A stretch of DNA of 64,000 nucleotides. It comes from an uncultured Pelagibacteraceae bacterium. GTDB lineage: Bacteria > Pseudomonadota > Alphaproteobacteria > Pelagibacterales > Pelagibacteraceae. Positions within the stretch are counted from its first letter, which is position 1. Each line of letters starts with the position of its first letter. The translations under genes were made by a program, and so were the position numbers. The notes beneath the pieces were generated by a model that did no database searches, had not been told where the DNA came from, and worked only from the letters and a program-made list of their open reading frames with translations. Shown piece after piece: positions 45,549-59,283 of this stretch. Location of the stretch: contig CACALX010000006.1 in NCBI GenBank assembly GCA_902533445.1, positions 1 through 64,000 of the forward strand, read 5' to 3'.

Positions 45549-46176
45549 CTTTCGTAACCTTGTACAAACCTAACCAAGCATTTACATCTTTGCTTGCAAT
45601 ATAATCAGATTTAAAAAATTCTACTTCTTCCCATTTATTATTTTGTTTTAGTAAATCAATTTTTTTATCAAATCCATACTCTTCATGAATTCCTTCATTT
45701 ATAGTAAAGCAAATCAATCCATCTGGTTTTGTTATTCTTATAAACTCATCCAATGCATTCGGTTTTACATGCCCAAAAGTAAATGTTCCAACGCACATAA
45801 CTCCACCATAGAAGTTGTCCTCAACTTCAATTGGTTGATTTAAATCAACCTTCATTAATTTTTGATAAAGATCTTTTGGTACAGTATCTAGTAAAGTTTG
45901 AGATAAATCGGCTCCATGAAAATTTTTAAAACTGTATTTTTTAAGTTCCAGACCAACTAAACCTGTTCCACATCCAGCATCAAAAATTAAAGTATCTTTA
46001 TTTTTCTCATATTTGTTAAATGTTTCTGCAGTTTCTTTAGGTCCTGTATAGTTCCAATCAAACATGTCTTTATTGTATTTATCTTTGTCTCCCCACTCAT
46101 CGTAGTACTTCATAACTTCATCAGTAGTTTTAAGCTTATAAATTGGAATTTTGTTTCCTACGTCTTTTTGAGCCAT
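45541..46176 (-). CDS. Class I SAM-dependent methyltransferase
   Basis: A 211-residue protein. The SAM-binding motif I is LIFDAGCGTGLVGLELKKY (about residue 62), motif II GADLSQTLLDTV, and a later FDRITKPDGL-like FIRITKPDGLICFTINEG. The overall layout resembles the METTL27 group of methyltransferases. It starts at the stop codon of the dehydrogenase gene (sharing base 46176) and overlaps the SET gene, suggesting a functional pair. The acceptor is unknown. Confidence 0.83.
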   Translation of the reverse strand: MAQKDVGNKIPIYKLKTTDEVMKYYDEWGDKDKYNKDMFDWNYTGPKETAETFNKYEKNKDTLIFDAGCGTGLVGLELKKYSFKNFHGADLSQTLLDTVPKDLYQKLMKVDLNQPIEVEDNFYGGVMCVGTFTFGHVKPNALDEFIRITKPDGLICFTINEGIHEEYGFDKKIDLLKQNNKWEEVEFFKSDYIASKDVNAWLGLYKVTKDV

Positions 46177-48581
46177 TAGCCTCTCATTTTTTGACCACTT
46201 GGATCATAAAGTGGTTCTTTAATTATTGAACAATTAAATAAATCTCCGTTTATCTCTACTTGAATTTTATTTTCAGATTTAATGCTTTTTTGATCAACAA
46301 AAGTAAAAGCTACACTTTTATTTACAAAATGAGCAAAACCACCTGAAGTTACATAACCAATACTTTGATCTCCATTCATTACCGCCTCATTATTTGTTAC
46401 ATCAATATCATTTGTTTCAACAATTAAAGGTATAAGTTTGTTTGAAGAATTTTCATTTTGTGCACTTTCTTTACCAATAAACTCTTTATCCCAATTAATA
46501 AAAGCATCTAGGCCTGTCTCTTTTGCAGTAAAATCTGGTCTATAATCTAATGTCCAAGCTCCCCAATTTTTCTCCAACCTCATCGACATTAATGCTCTTC
46601 CACCAAAGGGTTTAATATTAAATTCTTTGCCAGCTTCCATTAATTCTTCATAAAGTTTTAATTGATAATGAGGTGCCACATAAATTTCATATCCAAGTTC
46701 ACCAGTAAATGAAATTCTATTTATTATTGCTGGAACTCCCCCAACAAACATTCTTCTGGAGTCTCTAAATTTAAATTTTTCATTTGAAACATCGTCTCTT
46801 ACGATTTTTTCTAAAACCTTTCTTGAGTTAGGTCCTGCAATAGACAATCCATGATACTCATCAGATCTATTAGAATAACTTAAATTAAATTTATCTAAAT
46901 GACTCTCAAACCAACGTCTGTGCATTTCTTGAGCAGCTCCAGAACCAAATACCATGAATTCATCTTCATCCAAACAAGCAACAGTTAAATCTCCACACAA
47001 TTTTCCTCTATAAGATAACATTGGTGATAAAGATATTCTTCCAGGTTTTGGTAGTCTTCCGGCCATTATATGATCTAAAAATTTTCTGGTATCAGGTCCT
47101 TTGAACTCATGTTTTGAAAAGTTAGCAACTTCAATTAAACCAACATTCTCTCTAACATTAATAACTTCTTTTGACACATAGTCGTGTGATCTTGATCTTT
47201 TAATTGTAGGTTCTTCATGAGCATCTTCTTTACTTTTTGCAAACCACAACACATTTTCCAATCCAAAACTGTCCCCCATTACAGCTCCTTGATTAACAAA
47301 ACGATCGTATAGCGTAGTAGTTTTTTGCTTTCTTCCCTTTGGTAAAGTTTCATTAGGAAATGTCATAATAAATCTTCGTTCATAATTTTCTGAAGACTTT
47401 ATTGTTCCATATTGAGGGGATGCATAATCTCCAAATCTTGCAACATCCATAGCCCAAACATCAATTGAAGGTTCGCCATCAATAATCCATTCAGCAATAC
47501 ATTTTCCAACACCACCCCCTTGGCAAAATCCAGCCATCACACCAACTGCAACCCAATAATTTTTCATTCCTGGTACTGGACCAATAAGAGGACTTCCATC
47601 TGGACCAAAGGTAAAAGGACCATTTACTATATTTTTTATTCCTGCACGCTCTAATGCTGGCATTCTCTCAAAACCAATTGCTAATCGATCTTCAATATTA
47701 TCTAATTTTGGCTCCAGTAATTCATGTCCAAAATTCATTGGAGTTCCCTCTACTTTCCAAGGAGTTGATTTTGGTTCATAAGTTCCAAGCAACATTCCTT
47801 TTCCTTCTTGTCTAAAGTAAATATTTCCCTCAAAATCTGTTCCAATAGGCAATCTTTGGTCACCCATTGCTTCAATTTCTGGAATAGGTTCTGTGATTAA
47901 ATAATGATGTTCCATGGGTTGAACTGGAAGATTTAATCCTGCTAATTGGCCAACTTCTCTTGCCCAAAGTCCTCCTGCATTAATTACTATTTCAGCATTT
48001 ATATTTCCTTTTTCGGTAAAGACATCCCAAGTTCCATCTTCTTTTTGTTTCGTATCTTTCACGACAGTGTGAGTGTAATATTTTCCACCATGAACTTTTG
48101 CAGCTTTTGCAAAAGCATAAGTAACTCCTGATGGATCTACTTCACCATCAATAGGATCCCATAAAGCTAACAAATATCTAGAGGGATCAATTAAAGGATG
48201 TTTCTTTTTTACTTCTTCTAAAGAAATAAACTCTTGATCAAGCCCCATGTATCTTGCTTTGGATCTTTCTCTCTTTAAATAATCAGCCCAAACTTCATTT
48301 GAAGCTAAATAAAAACCTCCACTAGGTTTAAATCCTGTTGAATGACCAGATTCTTTTTCTATCTCTTTATAAAGACCTATTGTGTAAGCCATCATCCGAG
48401 AGATATTTGGGTCAGAAGAAATTACATGAACATTTCCAGCAGCATGCCACGAAGAACCTGAAGTTAATTCATTTCTTTCAAGTAAAATACAATCTTTTAA
48501 TCCAAATTTTGATAAATGGTAAAGAATAGAACATCCTACTACACCACCACCTATGATTACAACTTTGGCATGCTTTTCCAT
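46176..48581 (-). CDS. Dimethylglycine/sarcosine dehydrogenase-like flavoprotein (FAD + GcvT domains), copy 2
   Basis: An 801-residue enzyme with the same architecture as the 35696-38128 protein: FAD-binding VVIIGGGVVGCSILYHLSKFG, NELTSGSSWHAAGNVHVISSD at residue 40, and a GcvT-like second half (RENVGLIEVANFSKHEFKG, GLSIAGPNSRKVLEK, FTGELGYEIYV). It probably oxidises an N-methylated glycine derivative. It abuts bhmT on one side and a methyltransferase gene on the other. Divergence from copy 1 suggests the two handle successive steps (dimethylglycine and sarcosine) or different substrates. Confidence 0.87.
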   Translation of the reverse strand: MEKHAKVVIIGGGVVGCSILYHLSKFGLKDCILLERNELTSGSSWHAAGNVHVISSDPNISRMMAYTIGLYKEIEKESGHSTGFKPSGGFYLASNEVWADYLKRERSKARYMGLDQEFISLEEVKKKHPLIDPSRYLLALWDPIDGEVDPSGVTYAFAKAAKVHGGKYYTHTVVKDTKQKEDGTWDVFTEKGNINAEIVINAGGLWAREVGQLAGLNLPVQPMEHHYLITEPIPEIEAMGDQRLPIGTDFEGNIYFRQEGKGMLLGTYEPKSTPWKVEGTPMNFGHELLEPKLDNIEDRLAIGFERMPALERAGIKNIVNGPFTFGPDGSPLIGPVPGMKNYWVAVGVMAGFCQGGGVGKCIAEWIIDGEPSIDVWAMDVARFGDYASPQYGTIKSSENYERRFIMTFPNETLPKGRKQKTTTLYDRFVNQGAVMGDSFGLENVLWFAKSKEDAHEEPTIKRSRSHDYVSKEVINVRENVGLIEVANFSKHEFKGPDTRKFLDHIMAGRLPKPGRISLSPMLSYRGKLCGDLTVACLDEDEFMVFGSGAAQEMHRRWFESHLDKFNLSYSNRSDEYHGLSIAGPNSRKVLEKIVRDDVSNEKFKFRDSRRMFVGGVPAIINRISFTGELGYEIYVAPHYQLKLYEELMEAGKEFNIKPFGGRALMSMRLEKNWGAWTLDYRPDFTAKETGLDAFINWDKEFIGKESAQNENSSNKLIPLIVETNDIDVTNNEAVMNGDQSIGYVTSGGFAHFVNKSVAFTFVDQKSIKSENKIQVEINGDLFNCSIIKEPLYDPSGQKMRG

Positions 48582-49621
48582 TAATATTTTATTTCCTTGT
48601 TTACTTCTTTCAAAGATTTATCAGTACCGTGATGAAAATGTTTACTCATGTCTGGCATGTATTTCATTGAAATTGGTTTTTTACCAATCGCAACTGACAT
48701 TTCTCTAACGTGGTGAGCCTCAGCGCCACAACATATTCCAATAAAATTTATTTTATTTTTTACACAATCTTTTGCAAATTCTGCCATTTCAAATCTATTA
48801 CAAAACAAATTATCTAAAGCAACTGGAAATGCATTTCCACCAGGAATACAGTCACATCCGTGATCAGTGATATTTAAGAAACCAGGTTCTTCTTCAGTAG
48901 TTCTGTAAGGGACAGGAAGTCCTGATACATGGCATGAAACTTTGTCTCTAACTTTTTTTAAAAGCTTCATTGTCATCTCGGGTCCTCTGTAACAATTTAA
49001 TCCAACAACATCAGCACCTAAGTCTTCCATCATCTTGCATGCATCTTCAGCACTATGTCCTTCTCTAGTTTTGTCTCCTCTAGGAATTGCAAAATTACAA
49101 ACTGCAATAAGTTCAGCATCTTTAATTGCTTTTAATGCAATTTTCATTTCATCAGTCCAACTTATTGTTTCGGCAATAACAAAGTCAACACCAGCTTCTT
49201 TTGCCCAAGCTACTTGTTCTTCATACATTTGTTGACACTGTTTATGAGTATTTGCATCACCAGGATCAAATACATTGGTGTTTGCTACATCTCCACATAC
49301 CAGCAAATCTAAATCTTTAAACTCAGCTGCAGCATCTTTTGCAATTTTGAGTGCATTTTTTTGCATTGGTTCTAATAAATGTTCTTTGCCAATTATTCTA
49401 AGCTTTTCTCTATGACCGTAATAAGTAAATGCCTGAACAACATCTGAACCTGCTCTAATAAATTCTCTATGTAATTGTGTTACTACCTCAGGATGTTCTA
49501 AAACTACTTCTGGAACAAATGGACCCGCTGAAAGATAACCTCTTCTTTCCATTGCAAAAAGATAGCCCTCAGCACACATTATTGGACCTTCATTTAATCT
49601 TGTAATTAGATCTTTTTTCAT
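48581..49621 (-). CDS. bhmT: Betaine-homocysteine S-methyltransferase
   Basis: A 346-residue homocysteine methyltransferase-fold protein. Zinc-binding cysteines are visible in VVGLNCYRGP (about residue 214) and FIGICCGAEAHHVR (about residue 297). The beginning LITRLNEGPIMCAEGYLFAMERRGYLSAGPFVPEVVLEHPE has the BHMT pattern. It would transfer a methyl group from glycine betaine to homocysteine, giving methionine and dimethylglycine. The neighbouring dehydrogenase and divergent betaine-type transporter fit this. No leader of riboswitch size precedes it, since the Rieske oxygenase gene ends 11 bases upstream. Confidence 0.84.
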   Translation of the reverse strand: MKKDLITRLNEGPIMCAEGYLFAMERRGYLSAGPFVPEVVLEHPEVVTQLHREFIRAGSDVVQAFTYYGHREKLRIIGKEHLLEPMQKNALKIAKDAAAEFKDLDLLVCGDVANTNVFDPGDANTHKQCQQMYEEQVAWAKEAGVDFVIAETISWTDEMKIALKAIKDAELIAVCNFAIPRGDKTREGHSAEDACKMMEDLGADVVGLNCYRGPEMTMKLLKKVRDKVSCHVSGLPVPYRTTEEEPGFLNITDHGCDCIPGGNAFPVALDNLFCNRFEMAEFAKDCVKNKINFIGICCGAEAHHVREMSVAIGKKPISMKYMPDMSKHFHHGTDKSLKEVNKEIKY

Positions 49622-49632
49622 AATTTACCCTC

Positions 49633-50820
49633 TCATTTTGTTAAGTTGGTTGCAACCCACTTATGAAACATCAAAGTAGGAGTATCCATTACAGGTGAAA
49701 AATTCCCACCATTGTAAGCTGGGGAATTTCGCCCGTTTTGCATTCCTTCTATTGCAGTCACATCTTCATTCATAACTTCTTGCCAAAATGCAAAATTTTT
49801 TTCTCTTATAAGTTTAAACTCATCACTGGAGGCGCTTTCGTCTCCAACATAATATAATTCAAAATGTTCTTTAGTTTGATTGTTAGAAATTGGCTCTAAC
49901 CAAAATGCATAGAAATGATCAATATGTATTCCTAACATTACGTTTGGATATAATGATACATATTCAGATTTTTCAGAAAGTTCAGTTGGCCAGTTAGGAA
50001 AGCATTTAAATTTAATGTTTCCGTCGAACTGTTGTGAATATTTATTACTTCCTTGTCCTGAAAAATTAAAATTCTCATCTTCAATGTGATAGTGATCTGA
50101 AATATTTGAAACTTTATTTAGTTCTGGATGTATCCACGGTAAATGATAGCTTTCACAATAATTTTCAATTGCAAATTTCCAATTACTATTAACTGTCATA
50201 TTAAAATATCCGTTATCAGTCGAATGTCTTATTAATTTTTGATCTTTTTTAGAAATAAACTTAGACCATCTATCCTCTAGAGGTTTAATAAAATCTTCAA
50301 ATGGTTTTGCATTAGAATTAATATTTATGAAGATTAAATCCATCCAAACTTTTGATTTTATCTCTTTTAGGTTGCTATTGTTTTTATCAAACCCTTCAAT
50401 CTCATGTTTTCCAAGTCCTCCTATGTGTGGTGTAACAGTTAATTTTCCATTAAAATCATAGGACCAAGAATGATAAGGGCATCTAATTACATTTTTTAAC
50501 TTACATTCCTGATCAACTAATTTAAAACCTCTATGACTACAAACATTATGAAAAACTTTTACTTCGTTCTCTTTGTTTCTAACCGTTAGTATTGGTATCC
50601 CTAAAAGATTAAAAGGCTTTGCATCACCAGGATTTGGAACAGAGCTTGCAACACCAATCATTGTCCAATTATTTTTAAAAACTTTTTCTTTCTCAAATTC
50701 TAAATAGTCATCATTTAAATAACATTCATTTGGCAATCCATGTGCTTTTTCTATTGGATTTTTAACAACTTCTATTTTTTTAGGATCTAAGATGTCTGAT
50801 AATTTTTTATTTAAATTCAT
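49633..50820 (-). CDS. Rieske-type oxygenase alpha subunit (glycine betaine/carnitine/choline monooxygenase-like)
   Basis: A 395-residue protein. The Rieske 2Fe-2S ligands are C94 and H96 (VCSHRGFK) and C114 and H117 (RCPYHSWSY). The mononuclear iron site is visible in ENYCESYHLPWIHPEL, with the bridging acidic residue before it. In choline monooxygenase-, GbcA- and CntA-type enzymes this subunit attacks quaternary N-methyl compounds. Its position next to bhmT and divergent from proX supports a betaine-like substrate. A separate reductase is required but is not encoded nearby. A consensus AGGAGG precedes the ATG at 50824-50829. Confidence 0.85.
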   Translation of the reverse strand: MNLNKKLSDILDPKKIEVVKNPIEKAHGLPNECYLNDDYLEFEKEKVFKNNWTMIGVASSVPNPGDAKPFNLLGIPILTVRNKENEVKVFHNVCSHRGFKLVDQECKLKNVIRCPYHSWSYDFNGKLTVTPHIGGLGKHEIEGFDKNNSNLKEIKSKVWMDLIFININSNAKPFEDFIKPLEDRWSKFISKKDQKLIRHSTDNGYFNMTVNSNWKFAIENYCESYHLPWIHPELNKVSNISDHYHIEDENFNFSGQGSNKYSQQFDGNIKFKCFPNWPTELSEKSEYVSLYPNVMLGIHIDHFYAFWLEPISNNQTKEHFELYYVGDESASSDEFKLIREKNFAFWQEVMNEDVTAIEGMQNGRNSPAYNGGNFSPVMDTPTLMFHKWVATNLTK

Positions 50821-51090
50821 AAACCTCCTTTAATTAATTAAAAAATTAATTTTTAGGTTTAAAAATTACGACTCTCTAATAATGATTTGTTGAAAAACTG
50901 TTTTGCAATTTAAAATATAAACAAACTCTTTGAAACAAAAATTTGCTGAAAATTTCATAATAAAACCATAACTAAATTTATTGCACAGTTAAAGACAATT
51001 TAACTTCAACTTATGATTGAATTTAATTTGCAATATTTCTCTCAATATGTTCAATTTGATTTTTAAATGAATCAAATATTGGGAGATATA
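50821..51090. promoter_or_regulatory. Divergent promoter region between Rieske oxygenase and proX
   Basis: This 270-base AT-rich gap separates two divergent osmolyte operons and must hold both promoters. The Rieske gene has AGGAGG at 50824-50829. proX has GGGAGA at 51081-51086 just before the ATG at 51091. Short AT palindromes occur near 50830-50860 (AATTAATT arms). I see no protein-coding frame and no structure of a known riboswitch class. Confidence 0.6.
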
Positions 51091-52101
51091 ATGAAAATTA
51101 AAAGAATACTTCTTTCCCTAGCTGTTGTTTTTGGTCTTACTTCTTTTGGAAGTGTGGCTAATGCAGCTTGTGGAACTATAACAATCGCTAATATGAACTG
51201 GGCTTCAGCAAACTTAATGGCTGAAGTTGATAAAATCATACTAGAAGAAGGATATGGATGTACTGTTGAATTGGTGCCAGGTGCAACTCAGCCAACTTTT
51301 GCATCTATGCAAGAAAAAGGTGAACCAGATGTTGCTCCAGAGTTTTGGGCAAATGCTGCTAAAAGAGAGTTAGAAGCAGCTGTTGCTGAAGGTAAACTTC
51401 ATTCAATTAATAAAGCACCAATCACTGGACTTGGTGAAGGTTGGTGGGTATTACCTGCTACTTTAGAAAAGCATCCTGAATTAACGACTGCTGATGCAAT
51501 CTTAGAAAGACCTGATCTATTCCCTCACCCAGAGGACCCTTCAAAAGGTGGATTCCATATTTGCCCTCCAGGATGGAACTGTGAATTAAGTAACAGAAAC
51601 CATTTTAGAGCTTGGGGTATGGAAGAAAAAGGTTGGATGATAGTAGAAACTGGCTCTGCTGCAGGACTTGATGGTTCAATTGCTAAGGCAGCAGAAAGAG
51701 GTGAAAACTGGTTTGGTTACTACTGGTCGCCAACTGCTATTATAGGTAAATACAACATGCAAGCTGTAGATATGGGTGAGTATGCTGGTAAAGATAACTG
51801 GGATAATTGTTTGTCAAAACCAGAGCAAGAATGTGCTAACCCTTTAAAATCTTCATGGGTAAAATCTGAAGTATATACTGTTGCAACTGATAACTACAAA
51901 AAAACAGCTGGAAAAGAAGGTATGAAGTATCTTGAAAACAGAACTTACCCAGGTCCAGTAATGAACGGTATGTTGGTTTGGATGGGTGAAAACCAAGCAG
52001 AAGGTGCAGATGCTGCAATTGAATTCCTAAAAACACAAGAAGATGTTTGGACTAAATGGGTTTCAAGTGATGCTGCTGCAAAAATAAAAAAAGCACTTTA
52101 A
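51091..52101 (+). CDS. proX: Glycine betaine/proline-type ABC transporter binding protein
   Basis: A 336-residue protein. The signal peptide is MKIKRILLSLAVVFGLTSFG, cut after SVANA. The mature OpuAC-type domain begins CGTITIANMNWASANLMAEV and contains aromatic-rich segments (APEFWANAA, GEGWWVLPA, ENWFGYYWSPTAI) that can form the aromatic box for a quaternary ammonium group. I use the ATG at 51091, which has GGGAGA upstream; an ATG at 51067 would add eight residues before the signal peptide. Regular codon use and high Ala/Glu content suggest strong expression. Confidence 0.88.
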   Translation: MKIKRILLSLAVVFGLTSFGSVANAACGTITIANMNWASANLMAEVDKIILEEGYGCTVELVPGATQPTFASMQEKGEPDVAPEFWANAAKRELEAAVAEGKLHSINKAPITGLGEGWWVLPATLEKHPELTTADAILERPDLFPHPEDPSKGGFHICPPGWNCELSNRNHFRAWGMEEKGWMIVETGSAAGLDGSIAKAAERGENWFGYYWSPTAIIGKYNMQAVDMGEYAGKDNWDNCLSKPEQECANPLKSSWVKSEVYTVATDNYKKTAGKEGMKYLENRTYPGPVMNGMLVWMGENQAEGADAAIEFLKTQEDVWTKWVSSDAAAKIKKAL

Positions 52102-52113
52102 ATTAATGTTATT

Positions 52114-52141
52114 ATCGAACCCGTTGTAAAACGGGTTCGAT
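52114..52141 (+). terminator. Perfect 12-bp hairpin with GTAA loop between proX and proW
   Basis: ATCGAACCCGTT (52114-52125) and its exact reverse complement (52130-52141) close a GTAA loop, a stable GNRA-type tetraloop in RNA. The sequence after the stem is T-rich but broken (TAGTTTAAG), so it may partially terminate or protect the proX message rather than stop transcription before proW, which starts 17 bases later. Confidence 0.8.
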
Positions 52142-52158
52142 TAGTTTAAGTATAATTT

Positions 52159-53046
52159 ATGGATTTCTTTACTAAAATTCCTGTAATGGATAGAACAGCT
52201 TTAAGAGAGCTTAAAAAAGGTATTGATTTTAGTTTTAAAGAATTTTCAAGAGCCTATGGAGATGGAATAGAAGGTTTTTTTGATCCCCTATTATATTTTT
52301 TAATTTGGCTCGAAAAACTTTTAGTAAATAGTCCTTGGCCTATTATTATTGCAGTTTTTGCCCTATTAGCATGGATAGGTTCAAGAAGTATAAAATTAAC
52401 TATTGGGACGATGGTTTGCTTTTTGATAATTGGATATTTTGGAATGTGGAAAAACTGTATGGCTACAGTTGCTATTATATCAGTTTCGACTTTAGTTTGT
52501 ATTGTTGTTGGTATTCCAATAGGAATTTTAATGTCAAAGTCACAAAGAGCAGAAAAAGCAATTTTACCAATATTAGATATGATGCAAACTATTCCAAGTT
52601 TCGTTTATTTAATTCCTATTATCATGCTACTTGGTATAGGAAAAGTTCCAGGTCTATTGGCAGTTTGTATTTATGCCTTACCCCCAATTGTAAGACTAAC
52701 CAATCTGGGGATTAGAGAGGTGGATAAAGAAACTTTAGAGGCAAGCGAGGCTTTTGGGGCAACCCCAATACAAAAACTAAGGTCTGTTCAAATTCCTCTT
52801 TCATTGCCCACAATATTTGCGGGCATTAACCAAACAATTATGATGGCTTTAGCAATGGTAGTTATAGCATCGATGATTGGTGTTAGAGGTCTAGGAGTGC
52901 CTATTTTACAGGCTATTTCTAACCAATATTTGGCGTTGGGAATGATGAATGGTTTAGCAATTGTAGCCTTAGCAATTATCTTTGACAGGGTCACTCAGCA
53001 GTACGGCCAAAGAATTCAAAAGCACAGAGGTCAGCTTAAAAAGTAG
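52159..53046 (+). CDS. proW: Glycine betaine/proline-type ABC transporter permease
   Basis: A 295-residue membrane protein. The N-terminal extension before the first helix and the EAA loop EASEAFGATPIQKLRSVQIPLSL (about residue 195) match ProW/OpuAB permeases. Other segments are GIPIGILMSKSQRAEKAILPILDMMQTIP and MIGVRGLGVPI. It works with ProX. An ATP-binding subunit (ProV/OpuAA) would be expected next to it but is absent; the following gene encodes a MetF-like enzyme. Confidence 0.88.
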   Translation: MDFFTKIPVMDRTALRELKKGIDFSFKEFSRAYGDGIEGFFDPLLYFLIWLEKLLVNSPWPIIIAVFALLAWIGSRSIKLTIGTMVCFLIIGYFGMWKNCMATVAIISVSTLVCIVVGIPIGILMSKSQRAEKAILPILDMMQTIPSFVYLIPIIMLLGIGKVPGLLAVCIYALPPIVRLTNLGIREVDKETLEASEAFGATPIQKLRSVQIPLSLPTIFAGINQTIMMALAMVVIASMIGVRGLGVPILQAISNQYLALGMMNGLAIVALAIIFDRVTQQYGQRIQKHRGQLKK

Positions 53047-53106: not shown

Positions 53107-53835
53107 ATGAATTTTTCTTTGGAGATTAGTCCTAAAACAGATCTTGAAACTGTACCTCCACTAAGTGATGTTTATATCACTATGCTTCCAGGAGGAGATT
53201 ATAAAGAAACCGCAGATAAAGCAGTAGAACTTGTTAAAAAAGGATTTAATCCAGTTCCACATTTTCCAGCAAGATCAATGCATGATGATAGTGAACTAAA
53301 AGATTATGTTACAAGATGCAAAGATGGAGGAGTGAAGCAAGCACTAATTATTGGTGGAGGAAGAGAGCCTCTTGGAAAATTTGATAGTTCATTTCAACTT
53401 TTAGAAACAGGTTATTTTGAAAAAATGAAAATAGGAATAGCTGGACATCCTGAAGGGAGTCCTGATATATCCGACACAGATTTAGAAAAAGCAATGATAA
53501 ATAAAAAGCCTTACGCTGATTATATAGTAACACAGTGGTTATTAGATCCTCAGCCTATCATTGATTTTATTTCTAAACAAAGCGTACCAGTGCATGTTGG
53601 AATAACTGGGCCCTTGAAAATATCTAGCTTAATTAAATTTGCTAATATCGTTGGGGCAAAAAATTCCTTAAACTTTCTTAAATCTAATTTTAGTAGGGCG
53701 TTAGATTTATTAAAACCTAAAGACCCTAATGATTTAATTGGGAAAGTTAAATCGCACACTGATAACTTCCACATTTATACATTCGGCGGCTTGAAGGAAA
53801 CTAACAAGTGGTTGAGGGAGAATAGTTATGTCTAA
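53107..53835 (+). CDS. metF: Methylenetetrahydrofolate reductase-like protein
   Basis: A 242-residue TIM-barrel protein, shorter than typical MetF (about 290). The family layout is visible: the N-terminal SLEISPKTD, VYITMLPGGDYKETAD (about residue 24), FNPVPHFPARSMHDD, KQALIIGGGRE, IGIAGHPEGSPD, then YIVTQWLLDPQPIIDF. MetF interconverts methylene- and methyl-tetrahydrofolate using FAD. Its stop overlaps the start of the demethylase-like gene by 8 bases, so it is a strong candidate to process methyl-tetrahydrofolate produced by that enzyme. Confidence 0.8.
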   Translation: MNFSLEISPKTDLETVPPLSDVYITMLPGGDYKETADKAVELVKKGFNPVPHFPARSMHDDSELKDYVTRCKDGGVKQALIIGGGREPLGKFDSSFQLLETGYFEKMKIGIAGHPEGSPDISDTDLEKAMINKKPYADYIVTQWLLDPQPIIDFISKQSVPVHVGITGPLKISSLIKFANIVGAKNSLNFLKSNFSRALDLLKPKDPNDLIGKVKSHTDNFHIYTFGGLKETNKWLRENSYV

Positions 53836-55186
53836 TGAATTTGACTATACTAAATTAAAACATGTTACTTCTGTTGATCAGTCAGACAGAGAAGTACCAT
53901 ACAACTTAAGACAAAGTGGGCCAACAAAAGTTGAAATGTTAATTTCAACAAGGGTAAGAAAATCACCTTATTGGCATTTATCAATGCAGGCAGGTTGTTG
54001 GAGAGCAACGGTATACAATCGTATTTATCACCCAAGAGGCTATGTAAAACCTGAAGATGGTGGAGCTATGGTTGAATACGATGCTATCGTAAACCATGTA
54101 ACAATGTGGAACGTTGCTGTTGAAAGACAAATAAGAGTTAAAGGTCCAGATGCAGAAAAATTTACTGATTATGTGATCACTAGAGATGCAACTAAAATTT
54201 CACCAATGAGAGCAAGATATGTAATTTTATGTAATGCATACGGTGGAGTTTTAAATGATCCAATTCTTTTAAGAATATCTGAAGATGAATTTTGGTTTTC
54301 GTTATCAGATTCTGATATCGGAATGTATCTTCAAGGTGTAAATGCAGATGGCAGATTTGATTGTACAATTGAAGAAATTGATGTGAGCCCAGTTCAAATT
54401 CAAGGTCCTAAATCAAAAGCATTGATGAAAGATTTGTGTGGAGATCAAGTAGATTTTGACAACATGCCTTTCTATGGATTAGCTGAAGCTAAAATTGGCG
54501 GAAGAGATGTTGTAATTTCACAATCTGGTTTCTCAGGAGAAGCTGGTTATGAAATTTATCTAAGAAACTCTACTTTATATGCTGAAGATATGTGGAATGC
54601 TGTACTTGAAGCTGGAAAAAAACATAGCTTAATGGTTATTGCTCCCGCTCACCACAGAAGAATTCAAGCGGGTATTCTTTCATGGGGACAAGATATGGAT
54701 CAACAGCACAATCCGTTCCAATGTAATTTGGGTTATCAAGTTTCTTTATCTGGAAAAGGAGAATGGAACAAAACTGCAGATTATGTTGGTAAGGCTGCAC
54801 TGGAAAAGATGAAAGAAGAATTAAAAGCAGGTAAAAAACCATACAAACTTCAACTAGTTGGTATGGAATTAGGTGGTAAACCTATTGATAATTATGCACC
54901 TGACTTTTGGTTAGTTTCTCCTGAAAGTGGTGGAGATTCAGTAGGATTTTTAACATCACCATGGTGGCATCCTGAAAAGAAAACGAACATTGCAATGGGA
55001 TACGTTCCTTTTGATGGAACATTGAACGCAAATGGTTTTCCAAAAGGAAAAGTAGGAACTAAATTTAAAGTTCATTTACCTGCAGAATATTCAGAGACAC
55101 CAGGAACACCTGTTGATGCTGTAGTAGTGGATATTCCATTTAAAGAGTCTTTCAACGCAAATACAAGAGAAGTTGTAGAAGGCTAA
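53828..55186 (+). CDS. GcvT/DmdA/LigM-family tetrahydrofolate-dependent demethylase
   Basis: A 452-residue stand-alone aminomethyltransferase-fold protein. It has the GcvT pattern (VQIQGPKSKALMKDLCG, SQSGFSGEAGYEIYLR, a C-terminal beta-rich domain ending VVVDIPFKESFNANTREVVEG). It is longer than DmdA (about 370) and closer in length and C-terminus to LigM/DesA O-demethylases, which are also paired with metF. It probably moves a methyl group from an N-, O- or S-methylated substrate to tetrahydrofolate. Being downstream of a betaine-type transporter, an osmolyte is the likely methyl donor. It should not be called DmdA without further evidence. Confidence 0.78.
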   Translation: MSNEFDYTKLKHVTSVDQSDREVPYNLRQSGPTKVEMLISTRVRKSPYWHLSMQAGCWRATVYNRIYHPRGYVKPEDGGAMVEYDAIVNHVTMWNVAVERQIRVKGPDAEKFTDYVITRDATKISPMRARYVILCNAYGGVLNDPILLRISEDEFWFSLSDSDIGMYLQGVNADGRFDCTIEEIDVSPVQIQGPKSKALMKDLCGDQVDFDNMPFYGLAEAKIGGRDVVISQSGFSGEAGYEIYLRNSTLYAEDMWNAVLEAGKKHSLMVIAPAHHRRIQAGILSWGQDMDQQHNPFQCNLGYQVSLSGKGEWNKTADYVGKAALEKMKEELKAGKKPYKLQLVGMELGGKPIDNYAPDFWLVSPESGGDSVGFLTSPWWHPEKKTNIAMGYVPFDGTLNANGFPKGKVGTKFKVHLPAEYSETPGTPVDAVVVDIPFKESFNANTREVVEG

Positions 55187-55227: not shown

Positions 55228-55338
55228 ATGACAAAAGGGTTTCTAATCGCAGTTTGCATTATTATTGCGATTGCTTTAATAGTATTCCCATTAATTGTTT
55301 CTTATAAAGCTCAAAAAAATAAAAAAGATAAAAATTAA
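55228..55338 (+). CDS. Small single-helix membrane protein, 36 aa
   Basis: The frame encodes 36 residues: MTKGFLIAV, then a strongly hydrophobic helix ending VFPLIVSY, then a basic tail KAQKNKKDKN. A stop-start overlap (TAATG) joins it to the next gene at 55338, which is good evidence that it is translated. I know of no named family. It could anchor in the inner membrane and assist the YIP1-like protein. Confidence 0.55.
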   Translation: MTKGFLIAVCIIIAIALIVFPLIVSYKAQKNKKDKN

Positions 55339-55883
55339 TGTTTGGTGAATTTTTAAATATCATTTTCAAGTCAATAAAATTAGATAAGAAGCTTTATTCT
55401 GATAACAGAAATTTTGGCGAATCTTCAATATATTTTGCAGGCTTAATAATGATTTTAGATGGAGTTGCTGGTGCAGTAGCAGCTAACACTGTCATTAAAA
55501 CTGCAATAGGAATGTCAGGTCTAACAGCAATAGTTACTTGGTTAATATGGGCGATCTTCATTTTTGTAATAGGTGTTAAACTTTTTCCAGATAAACAAAC
55601 TAAAGTATCATTTAAAAAAGTTCTAACCGCAGTTGGTTTTGCTCATGCTCCTGGTTTATTAAGATTTTTTGCAGTAACTCCAGATTTAATGATACCTATA
55701 ATTTTTCTTACTCAATTTTGGATTTTTGCAGGTTTAATCATTTCAACAAAAGAAATTTTAAATTTAAAATCTAATTTTAAATCTTTTGGTATAGTCTTAT
55801 TATCTTTTTTGATAATAGCTTTTCTATCAATTACTTTCGTGATGAGTAGAATGAACATGCTTCCAACTAATCAGATTAGCTAG
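55338..55883 (+). CDS. YIP1 family membrane protein
   Basis: A 181-residue protein with five hydrophobic helices. The pattern of an amphipathic start (MFGEFLNIIFKSIKLDKKLYSDNRN), ILDGVAGAVAA near residue 40, GVKLFPDKQTKVSFKKVLTAVGFAHAPGLL in the centre, and two closing helices fits bacterial YIP1-domain proteins. No function is established for these in bacteria. Its end overlaps the convergent 55-residue gene by 4 bases. Confidence 0.7.
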   Translation: MFGEFLNIIFKSIKLDKKLYSDNRNFGESSIYFAGLIMILDGVAGAVAANTVIKTAIGMSGLTAIVTWLIWAIFIFVIGVKLFPDKQTKVSFKKVLTAVGFAHAPGLLRFFAVTPDLMIPIIFLTQFWIFAGLIISTKEILNLKSNFKSFGIVLLSFLIIAFLSITFVMSRMNMLPTNQIS

Positions 55884-56047
55884 ATTGGAAAAATAGTTTT
55901 TGAAACTCTACAAGATTTACAAATTTTAAAACCAGTTAATATTAAATTTTGCGATACACTCTCATCCTCTTCTTTACACTCATCACAGATATTATTTAAA
56001 TCTTCAATGTAATCTTGGTCATGAATTTCATCAAAATTATCAGTCAT
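55880..56047 (-). CDS. 55-aa protein with two CxxC motifs (zinc-ribbon-like)
   Basis: The frame starts at ATG 56045-56047 and ends at TAG 55880-55882. It encodes an acidic N-terminal region (MTDNFDEIHDQDYIEDLNN), then CDEC at residues 21-24 and CKSC at residues 43-46, 18 residues apart, with a basic end. The spacing would suit a structural zinc site. The ATG lies inside the end of the DUF3726 gene (8-base overlap, ATGACTGA), a typical coupling arrangement. The family is not recognised. It completes a four-gene operon with the genes at 56040-59283. Confidence 0.62.
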   Translation of the reverse strand: MTDNFDEIHDQDYIEDLNNICDECKEEDESVSQNLILTGFKICKSCRVSKTIFPI

Positions 56048-56651
56048 TATCTGTTAGGCCTGCACCTGCCCCATCCTGTTTTAAACTCTCGGTTTCTTCA
56101 ACAAAAGTATCTTCAGACAATTTGTACAAATTCTTCCACTCTTCCTCCGAAAAGTTATCAATATTTTCCAGAAAACTGATCTCTAAATGATTTGCAACAG
56201 ATGGAAATTCGTTATTAGCAATATTAGAATAGATATTTAAATTTAAATTTAAAATAATTTCTTTTTTATCAAGATTTATGTGAATTTTTTTACCAATAAT
56301 TTCTGATGCTCTGCTTACAAAAGCTAAAAATATTGAAGGGTAAGCAACGTTATTAAGTTCTATTTTTTTTAAGAATTCTAAAGATTTTGATTGGTCTAAA
56401 AAACTAACACCGAGGATAATTGGACAATAAGATTTTGCTGAAGGTTGATTTTTTTCTAATATTAGATTTAAATTTTGAAAACTATTTTCTTTCCTTTCAG
56501 AAAAATATTTATTTATATCTTTAATTCCTGGTAGACCAAATGCCTCTAAAAGTCTTACACACTTTGCTGTTTCTTCAGCAACCCCCCATGAATATCCGCT
56601 AGCTTTAGTTGCTCTTTTAACAGTAGTTTCAATTTCACTTAATGATTTCAT
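56040..56651 (-). CDS. DUF3726 family protein
   Basis: A 203-residue cytoplasmic protein starting MKSLSEIETTVKRATKASGYSWGVAEETAK, the pattern of DUF3726, followed by LLEAFGLPG and, after a charged middle, KSYCPIILGVSFLDQS and YPSIFLAFVSRASEIIGKK. I chose the ATG at 56651; a longer frame reaching 56684 would overlap the upstream gene by 32 bases. The C-terminus has a glycine-rich DGAGAGLTDND tail, which also encodes the start of the next gene. The function is unknown. Confidence 0.75.
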   Translation of the reverse strand: MKSLSEIETTVKRATKASGYSWGVAEETAKCVRLLEAFGLPGIKDINKYFSERKENSFQNLNLILEKNQPSAKSYCPIILGVSFLDQSKSLEFLKKIELNNVAYPSIFLAFVSRASEIIGKKIHINLDKKEIILNLNLNIYSNIANNEFPSVANHLEISFLENIDNFSEEEWKNLYKLSEDTFVEETESLKQDGAGAGLTDND

Positions 56652-56652
56652 G

Positions 56653-58314
56653 TTAAATGTTATTTTTATAAACCCACTGCTCATCGTAATTTTTTAACTC
56701 ATGAGGTAATGGCGCTCCTTGAAACATACAAATTCTTAACCACTTGTCAGATCTCGGGTCAAATTTTAAAGCCCCAAAGAAAGATAGCTTCAATCTCAAC
56801 ATATCAATAGGCATTATGTTTTTACCAATTGTATTATCTTGAATTTCTGAATAAGGAAATTTTTCAACTATAAAAACTCTTCTAATAACATGTCTCAAAT
56901 TAGAGTTTTTTATTAAAAAGTCAGATACAGTTTGACTATTTTTAGAAACCAAAAGTATTTCATAAAGCTTTTTTATGTCCCTAGCTATGGCTAAAGGTTG
57001 TTCTAATTCAGAGCCATGTTCTTCAAATCTATCAGCTAATCTTGGCTCTTCTTTATTTTTTGAGATAAACCAAAAATTTTGATTATTTTCTTTTTTTTCA
57101 AAATTTATTTTTAAAATATTTGGATATTTTTTTTCAATTATATTTCTTAAATCTTCAACAGTTCTATGAGCTGGTATATTAAAATATTTTTCTTCATCAG
57201 AGCTCATTTCTTTTACTAAAGGTTCAGTTATTTCACTATATGGTTCCATCATAATGGACACTACATACTCAATACATTCTTCACACGTTTGTTTCTCAAG
57301 CAACTCATAAATACTGTTGAAAGGATATTCTCTTGTAAAATCAAAATCATTCTCAATAAATTTTAAAAATTTTTGAACATCTTTTAGTAGATTATTAATT
57401 TTTTTTTTTTGATACTCACTATCAGTGTTCCAGCTTGTGATATTTGTTAATGATTTTTTTACACAATCAACAAACAGTTCACTATCTTTTTTATTTACAT
57501 TTTGAATCTCTCTAATTTTTTTTAATGCTATTTCTCTACTTAAGATCCAGTTATTCAAAAGTGTTGGATGATTAACAATAAAAGGAGCCATTCCTAATCC
57601 AGTAGAATTTCCAATGCCTAAATTTTTACATATTTGCTCATCTAGTTTTATTGCTTTTTTTGGATTTTTATTAAAAGCAACATGATTAACCTGGTCAAAA
57701 GTGAACTGTCTTACAAGATAGACTAGCATCATTTCTAATCTAAATGGTCCGTTAATTTCCTCGCGATTTTTAATTCTAAACCTATCCGCTAAACCAAATT
57801 TACCAGAACCATAAACAGCAGTAGTTCTGTATAAATATCCAACTTTTGATAATAAATTTAAATCTGGTTGTAATCCTTGACTTAAATTCTCTGTTACATG
57901 ATTAAATAATCTTACGGATTTATTTGCTCTTGATAATGTAAGTTCTTTATAAGAAAGTCTTCCAACTTCTTGTTTAGGAACTTCATTTTTCAATCTTTCA
58001 ATATCTTTTTTACCTGGCACTCCATCATGAAGAGTAAAAGCTGCATCCCATTTAGTAGCTATAACTCTGTCTGATCTTTCTTCATCTTTAATATGATTTG
58101 CAAAACAAACTAAAGAATAAACTCTTTTGTCTTTTTTAAATGAATACACTGCCTCACCATAACCATTTTCATCTAAATTAAACAAATCTTGTTTATATTC
58201 CCAGTCTTTAAATTCATTCAAAAAACTTCTTAAAAAAGATAGTTTAGATTGATGAAAAGATCCCAAACGAGATAATTTCATAATAGTATTTGGATCTCTT
58301 AGTTCTATTTTCAT
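56653..58314 (-). CDS. Uncharacterised 553-aa protein of the M19/DUF3726 operon
   Basis: I do not recognise a named family. The protein is soluble, highly charged and probably mixed alpha/beta, with no signal peptide. Recognisable segments are AVYSFKKDKRVYSLVCFANHI (about residue 55), DAAFTLHDGVPGKKDIERL (about 90), YRTTAVYGSGKFGLADRFRIKN (about 160), FRLEMMLVYLVRQFTFDQVNHVAF, a TCEECIEYVV segment with CxxC, and FGALKFDPRSDKWLRICMFQGAPLPHEL near the end. It begins 3 bases after the dipeptidase-like gene and ends 1 base before the DUF3726 start. Its conserved HDG and DRF segments could be active-site elements. Confidence 0.65.
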   Translation of the reverse strand: MKIELRDPNTIMKLSRLGSFHQSKLSFLRSFLNEFKDWEYKQDLFNLDENGYGEAVYSFKKDKRVYSLVCFANHIKDEERSDRVIATKWDAAFTLHDGVPGKKDIERLKNEVPKQEVGRLSYKELTLSRANKSVRLFNHVTENLSQGLQPDLNLLSKVGYLYRTTAVYGSGKFGLADRFRIKNREEINGPFRLEMMLVYLVRQFTFDQVNHVAFNKNPKKAIKLDEQICKNLGIGNSTGLGMAPFIVNHPTLLNNWILSREIALKKIREIQNVNKKDSELFVDCVKKSLTNITSWNTDSEYQKKKINNLLKDVQKFLKFIENDFDFTREYPFNSIYELLEKQTCEECIEYVVSIMMEPYSEITEPLVKEMSSDEEKYFNIPAHRTVEDLRNIIEKKYPNILKINFEKKENNQNFWFISKNKEEPRLADRFEEHGSELEQPLAIARDIKKLYEILLVSKNSQTVSDFLIKNSNLRHVIRRVFIVEKFPYSEIQDNTIGKNIMPIDMLRLKLSFFGALKFDPRSDKWLRICMFQGAPLPHELKNYDEQWVYKNNI

Positions 58315-58317
58315 AAC

Positions 58318-59283
58318 TTAAATTGATTTATAAAAATTGTACCAATTATTTCCTAGTATCCCATGTGTCTCATTATCTGAAAATCCAATCTTTTTGAGAC
58401 CTTTTTCTATATTTGCAAATCCTCTTGAATCTTCAAACCAGTCAGGTTGTTTTGGAAATCCTGGTTTATTTTTTGATCCTTCTCCGTAATTTTTAATTTT
58501 AGTCCAAGTACCATTTCTCATCCACTCAACTACGCTGTCGGGTTGATCAAGGCAAAGATCTGAACCTATACCAATTTTACTTGCTCCCATAATTTCTGCG
58601 GTCTTTGCTACCATTGCACAAAAACTATCAACAGTGCAATTACTATTATCTTTCAAGTGATGTGGATATAAAGATAAACCTAACATTCCTCCACTATCAC
58701 TTAACATCTTAAGCAAATCTGAAGACTTGTTTCTTTTTGCAGCATGCCAAAAAGAAGGGTTTGCATGTGTAATCGCAATTGGTTTTTCACTTATTTCAAT
58801 TGCATCCATTGTGCTTTTTTCTGCAGAATGAGACATATCAATAGCGATACCTACTCTATTCATTTCTTTTATTGCTTCTCTTCCAAAATTAGTTACTCCA
58901 CTATCGATTTTTTCATAGCAACCAGTAGCAAGTAGAGATTGATTATTGTAAGTTAGCTGCATAAATCTACATCCAAGTTTATGAACTTTTTCAACCAAAC
59001 TTATATCATCCTCAATTGGTGAACAATTTTGAAAACCAAAAAATATTGCAGTTTTATTTTCAAGCTTTGCTTTTTCAATATCCTTAAAATTTTTTCCTAG
59101 AAATATAAGATCAGAATTTTCCTCAAAAATTTTTTCCCACTTATTTAATTCTGTTATTAGCTCATCATAATCTTCATGGTAAACTATAGTTACATGAACT
59201 GCATCTAAACCTGCTGCTCGATTTATTTCAAAAATTTTTCTAGACCAATTGCAATATTGCAAATTATCGATTCTAAAATTCAT
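58318..59283 (-). CDS. M19 (renal dipeptidase) family protein with altered metal site
   Basis: A 321-residue TIM-barrel amidohydrolase-type protein of the membrane dipeptidase family. The second-half metal and substrate residues are visible: H152 in IDMSHSAE, H173 in ITHANPSF, and D242 in GIGSDLCLD. However, the usual N-terminal HxD ligand pair is replaced by MNFRIDNLQYCNW, and the iEGG segment with the bridging Glu by FFGFQNCSPIED. It may be a specialised subfamily acting on a non-dipeptide substrate, or have lost one metal site. It is the first gene of the minus-strand operon ending at 55880. Confidence 0.8.
   Translation of the reverse strand: MNFRIDNLQYCNWSRKIFEINRAAGLDAVHVTIVYHEDYDELITELNKWEKIFEENSDLIFLGKNFKDIEKAKLENKTAIFFGFQNCSPIEDDISLVEKVHKLGCRFMQLTYNNQSLLATGCYEKIDSGVTNFGREAIKEMNRVGIAIDMSHSAEKSTMDAIEISEKPIAITHANPSFWHAAKRNKSSDLLKMLSDSGGMLGLSLYPHHLKDNSNCTVDSFCAMVAKTAEIMGASKIGIGSDLCLDQPDSVVEWMRNGTWTKIKNYGEGSKNKPGFPKQPDWFEDSRGFANIEKGLKKIGFSDNETHGILGNNWYNFYKSI

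Follow-up and report, generated by a model that had tools for sequence, protein, structure and literature searches.

The trigonelline pathway TgnABCDE of Acinetobacter converts an N-methylpyridinium carboxylate by ring opening, an aldehyde dehydrogenase step and an amidohydrolase step. For the related degradation of homarine (N-methylpicolinate), a study from 2026 reportedly describes an operon, homABCDER, which is said to occur in Rhodobacterales, SAR11 and SAR116 and to yield N-methylglutamate and glutamate. Homarine is a major algal metabolite and SAR11 are among the most abundant cells in the sea, and homarine genes in SAR11 would tie a large flux of carbon and nitrogen to marker genes. 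A conserved homarine pathway of environmental bacteria that involves N-methylglutamate dehydrogenase (Mgd) is credited to Ferrer-Gonzalez et al. (2026, Nat Microbiol 11:1531-1546) in the passage of PMC13390433 that cites this work. TgnAB was judged unlikely to act on homarine (PMC8269262), and another ring-opening enzyme is therefore needed for this compound.

We analyzed a window of 64,000 nucleotides, the whole stretch of DNA under study, from an uncultured Pelagibacteraceae bacterium (contig CACALX010000006.1), in which the following genes form a tightly coupled unit:

58318..59283, minus strand: M19-fold amidohydrolase, membrane-dipeptidase-like with an atypical metal site, 321 aa, first gene of the unit (PF01244)
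56653..58314, minus strand: 553-aa core protein without Pfam, NCBIfam or PDB sequence match
56040..56651, minus strand: DUF3726 protein, 203 aa from the ATG at 56651 (PF12525)
55880..56047, minus strand: double-CxxC zinc-ribbon-like peptide, 55-aa ORF

This unit is probably the SAR11 version of an operon that degrades a quaternary N-methylated heterocycle, with homarine as the most likely compound, and that feeds carbon and nitrogen into N-methylglutamate; we name homarine on the basis of the reported operon homABCDER and of the linkage to Mgd. A sequence-only reading had taken the genes for a complex or pathway not yet described, which is probably wrong, since a homarine pathway with Mgd was published in 2026, as far as the citing passage of PMC13390433 conveys it. 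The same reading's four coupled minus-strand genes were reproduced in the window with their coordinates and joints, that is, gaps of 3 and then 1 bases and an overlap of 8 bases between the last pair. The start of the DUF3726 gene was taken as the ATG one base past the upstream stop (56651), and the longest ORF begins at 56684. Convergent with the unit, a membrane protein of a family without name is encoded at 55338-55883 (+), and the 3' end of its gene shares 4 bases with the gene for the CxxC peptide.

The order M19, 553-aa, DUF3726 and CxxC peptide was complete in 74 of 80 SAR11 loci with nearly identical joints, including the 8-base overlap between the DUF3726 and peptide genes, so that these homologues are clearly anything but rarely adjacent. 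In the remaining six loci, the peptide was not detected (four) or the contig ended before DUF3726 (two). The 553-aa gene was present in 169 of 247 genomes drawn from the order, and the nearest relatives of its product are all from SAR11, which places the window in Pelagibacteraceae. Outside SAR11, the 553-aa gene lies directly upstream of DUF3726 in all 20 proteobacterial loci, and an M19 gene lies within a few kb in all 20; these loci were picked by DUF3726 and hence show what DUF3726 travels with. When 398 genomes from the phylum were searched with a 553-aa profile instead, 29 were positive. Next to diverged 553-aa copies, a small DUF3726-type gene still follows in line and M19 is adjacent in some only, where the DUF3726-type calls were partly made by position and N-terminal sequence and few pass the E-value cut. 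A diverged 553-aa subfamily (L245-L249) has a shorter DUF3726-like partner of 172-188 aa and, in three cases, no M19 gene nearby; in two genomes (G083 and G099) the main 553-aa form is present alongside it. Relatives of the unit are found on plasmids in Phaeobacter, Sinorhizobium, Aminobacter, Vibrio, Caballeronia and Pseudomonas. The triad of M19, 553-aa and DUF3726 genes is common to SAR11, Rhodobacterales, Rhizobiales and Gammaproteobacteria, and it is retained in Sinorhizobium despite 24% identity. This deep co-conservation supports the initial idea of a functional unit of unknown-family proteins that probably acts on nitrogen-containing substrates.

The genomic context had been thought to give no obvious answer, but in relatives the unit is accompanied by Mgd-type soxBDAG genes, transporters of the betaine type, and genes for aldehyde dehydrogenase, Ldh2 and RidA. 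Within 8 kb in 26 non-SAR11 loci, we found genes for M19 in 26, for an aldehyde dehydrogenase in 19, for a LysR regulator in 17, for a BCCT transporter in 14 and for an Ldh2 protein in 9; RidA and PurU are further neighbours among relatives of the unit. The Phaeobacter operon comprises aldehyde dehydrogenase, M19, BCCT, 553-aa, DUF3726 and LysR genes, and these five structural genes plus the regulator presumably match homABCDER in number and kind. In Phaeobacter inhibens DSM 17395, the 553-aa, DUF3726 and M19 genes are PGA1_RS18830, RS18825 and RS18840. In this operon, the aldehyde dehydrogenase remains to be compared with known families by score. The Phaeobacter aldehyde dehydrogenase obtains top scores with 2,5-dioxovalerate/alpha-ketoglutarate-semialdehyde dehydrogenases, yet these remain under the respective cut-offs. 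In Aminobacter and Shinella, a ProXWV betaine transporter is encoded downstream of the unit in place of BCCT. The SAR11 unit differs from this Phaeobacter-type operon in that aldehyde dehydrogenase, BCCT and LysR are not linked to it, whereas the 55-aa CxxC peptide is extra. No BCCT gene was found near the unit in SAR11, nor any close SAR11 counterpart to the aldehyde dehydrogenase encoded in the operon (best match 33%); ProX and ProW homologues do occur near the SAR11 unit, and the window holds:

51067-52101, plus strand: OpuAC/ProX-like binding protein (PF04069)
52159-53046, plus strand: ABC permease (PF00528)

These betaine-type ABC transporter genes (51067..53046) are a possible uptake route.

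Such neighbours would suit any quaternary N-methyl compound, and in Phaeobacter, Pseudomonas sp. MPC6 and SAR11 the unit has a betaine-demethylase-type Rieske oxygenase next to it. Both observations are in line with the degradation of another N-methylated heterocycle or betaine (trigonelline, stachydrine/N-methylproline or another osmolyte), with Mgd being linked because methylamine or N-methylglutamate is released. We consider such a substrate rather unlikely, as trigonelline is already served by TgnAB in other bacteria, and as the published homarine pathway with Mgd (cited in PMC13390433) offers the simpler fit. On plasmid pSymB of Sinorhizobium meliloti (L155, 8223-19665), the distant triad (24% identity) is accompanied by an IclR regulator, an ABC transporter, a class-III aminotransferase and RidA, which suggests a second substrate. 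Trigonelline was set aside as the substrate of this relative: growth of S. meliloti on trigonelline depends on pSymA (PMC4207669), and the pSymB-encoded relative thus does not suffice for it.

Within 9 kb upstream of the unit and on the same strand, 61 of 80 SAR11 loci have a soxBDAG-type cluster, at a distance of 3.4-8.3 kb (about 5.6 kb in most), and 12 of the 19 loci without it have less than 2.3 kb of upstream sequence. On the contig studied here, this cluster lies just outside the analyzed stretch:

64290-69402 of the contig, just beyond the window: soxBDAG-type cluster, adjoining formate-THF ligase

Phaeobacter inhibens DSM 17395 and Aliiroseovarius likewise have a full soxBDAG-type cluster next to the operon, and in Shinella one lies just upstream of it. 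In a SoxA tree of 44 proteins (midpoint root; compositional bias was flagged by the program), the linked SAR11 copies join a Rhodobacterales clade together with the operon-linked Phaeobacter gene (support 97/98). Another member of this clade shares synteny with gmaS, mgsC, mgsB and mgsA-like genes, where the GmaS-type genes were assigned by position and profile; the second SAR11 SoxA paralogue is separate from the unit-linked SAR11 copies. Tree and synteny thus support that the unit-linked soxBDAG genes are the Mgd orthologue, which parallels the homarine pathway, where Mgd is reportedly involved as well. In the genus, 112 genomes were counted with both the 553-aa gene and the linked SoxA, 16 with the 553-aa gene only, 8 with SoxA only and 23 with neither (odds ratio 20, Fisher p 4e-11, not corrected for relatedness), as counted from lists of matches in which fragmentary orthologues may be missed. 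The association is weak in a sister family (f72): there, a close copy of Mgd is missing from most genomes that carry the 553-aa gene.

That the unit is so strongly linked to Mgd in SAR11, and so often present together with it, would also fit an accessory role within the methylamine (gamma-glutamylmethylamide/N-methylglutamate) pathway instead of a separate pathway, for example in the repair of an Mgd or Mgs by-product. We give this function a very low probability, because an Mgd cluster occurs in synteny with gmaS/mgs-like genes without the unit alongside (G226), and because in many genomes the unit comes with a transporter and a regulator of its own.

SAR11 has two soxBDAG sets, and Sun et al. 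(2011; PMC3160333) left open which one is Mgd; linkage and the SoxA tree suggest that it is the set beside formate-THF ligase, which we favour. Their soxB2D2A2G2 region (SAR11_1281-1284 of HTCC1062; PMC3160333) contains genes for formate-THF ligase, a glutamine-amidotransferase-like protein and an iron alcohol dehydrogenase, which also occur upstream of the unit, and a dipeptidase is not mentioned in that account. Beside formate-THF ligase, the window's genome also encodes a 262-aa protein (L195, 13205-13993, minus strand) without an NCBIfam match, which probably corresponds to the glutamine-amidotransferase-like SAR11_1286 of PMC3160333.

The first enzyme of the unit clearly belongs to the M19 fold: it matches Pfam PF01244 (Peptidase_M19) with 236 bits (cut-off 26) and has the 'amidohydrolase' 2i5g as closest solved chain (E 1.5e-55), while no NCBIfam family was matched. 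In renal dipeptidase, the canonical binuclear metal site is formed by HxD, a Glu, two His and an Asp. The unit's M19 protein has the fold and the two His of this metal site in common with renal dipeptidase, but lacks HxD and the bridging Glu, as does 2i5g. IDxLQY takes the place of the N-terminal HxD motif, and the bridging Glu has become Gln (Q85, GxQN) in the protein and its relatives. Both are replaced in 21 of 21 relatives and H152, H173 and D242 are invariant in the same 21, so that the changed metal ligands first noticed in the window hold throughout. As HxD and the bridging Glu are lost and two His and an Asp kept, the residue pattern makes it likely that the protein has one metal site at most. 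The M19 fold would be expected in an ordinary unit for peptide or cell-wall dipeptide hydrolysis, consisting of a dipeptidase with accessory proteins. Peptide hydrolysis was nevertheless rejected and appears hardly credible to us, because the family as a whole has lost zinc ligands that true dipeptidases possess; moreover, the genes around the unit encode betaine transporters, aldehyde dehydrogenase and Mgd, and not peptide uptake.

For the 553-aa protein, neither Pfam nor NCBIfam offers a family and the PDB contains no sequence relative, in agreement with its initial description as a protein without known function; a match to a known enzyme family, which would have spoken against the initial reading, is thus absent. 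Its AlphaFold2 model (pLDDT 86, pTM 0.89) gave no Foldseek match under E 0.3, and the best row of the fold comparison (VIA, Z 4.8) is at chance level, where a missing match is not proof of a new fold. About 100 columns are invariant among 21 relatives, and no fold or cofactor motif points to the chemistry of the protein.

The DUF3726 protein matches PF12525 with 73.3 bits (cut-off 22.1). Its model (pLDDT 81) aligned to 14 Ldh2-family entries with Z 8.3-9.7 over 172-179 of 203 residues (rmsd 6-10), and the next unrelated row had Z 3.2; the aligned chains are Ldh2, ureidoglycolate dehydrogenase and piperideine-2-carboxylate reductase. Weak support came from Foldseek (E 0.09) and from a weak sequence-profile match to Ldh2 at the N-terminus only. 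Going by the model, DUF3726 likely folds as a shortened Ldh2/piperideine-carboxylate reductase: it has the overall fold of the Ldh2 family (type-2 malate/lactate dehydrogenase, ureidoglycolate dehydrogenase, delta1-piperideine-2-carboxylate reductase), but with 203 aa it is about 130 residues shorter than the ~330 residues of these enzymes. The SHG segment of Ldh2 lines up by eye with PG/NG/GG in DUF3726. A literature search for DUF3726 or homABCDER gave no match. We propose the 553-aa protein as the catalytic subunit, with DUF3726 as its likely partner subunit. The 55-aa peptide retains its four Cys in 74 of 76 copies, and it had no match in non-SAR11 loci, being part of the SAR11 version of the unit only.

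To turn homarine into the five-carbon N-methylglutamate, the ring must be opened, an aldehyde oxidized, one carbon taken off the nitrogen and a C=N bond reduced. The last three of these steps suit the aldehyde dehydrogenase, the amidohydrolase and Ldh2, so that ring opening is left to the 553-aa and DUF3726 proteins, the constant parts without an assigned step. In the pathway we propose, homarine would be imported by the betaine-type transporter, whose linkage is seen in relatives and whose substrate would be homarine, and the 553-aa protein with its DUF3726 partner may then open the pyridinium ring. The ring-opened semialdehyde would be oxidized by the aldehyde dehydrogenase, the gene of which is linked in most non-SAR11 loci, before the M19 amidohydrolase might cut the remaining C-N amide, for example an N-formyl group. 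Where present, the Ldh2 reductase could reduce the C=N bond to give N-methylglutamate, with RidA clearing reactive imines. Mgd (soxBDAG) would finally turn N-methylglutamate into glutamate and methylene-THF, a reaction taken from the literature, and released formate could enter folate via the neighbouring formate-THF ligase. In SAR11, both the aldehyde dehydrogenase and the reductase would have to be encoded at distant sites.

The proposed steps of ring opening, aldehyde dehydrogenation and amide hydrolysis parallel those of TgnABCDE, but TgnB is a luciferase-like flavin monooxygenase and the unit is without one: no flavin-dependent monooxygenase domain was found among the unit genes in Pfam and NCBIfam. 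The 553-aa protein and the shortened Ldh2-like DUF3726 could, as a tentative suggestion on which we would not yet rely, form a new-fold enzyme that opens the N-methylpyridinium ring in SAR11 without a known flavin monooxygenase.

Elsewhere in the window, the minus-strand genes at 46176-50820 resemble a betaine demethylation cluster:

49633-50820, minus strand: Rieske oxygenase
48581-49621, minus strand: homocysteine S-methyltransferase-family protein
46176-48581, minus strand: FAD oxidoreductase/GcvT fusion

On the plus strand, 53107-55186 encodes an MTHFR-like protein and a DmdA-like aminomethyltransferase, the latter scoring under the DmdA cut-off, and this pair resembles SAR11_1264/1265 of HTCC1062 (PMC3160333).
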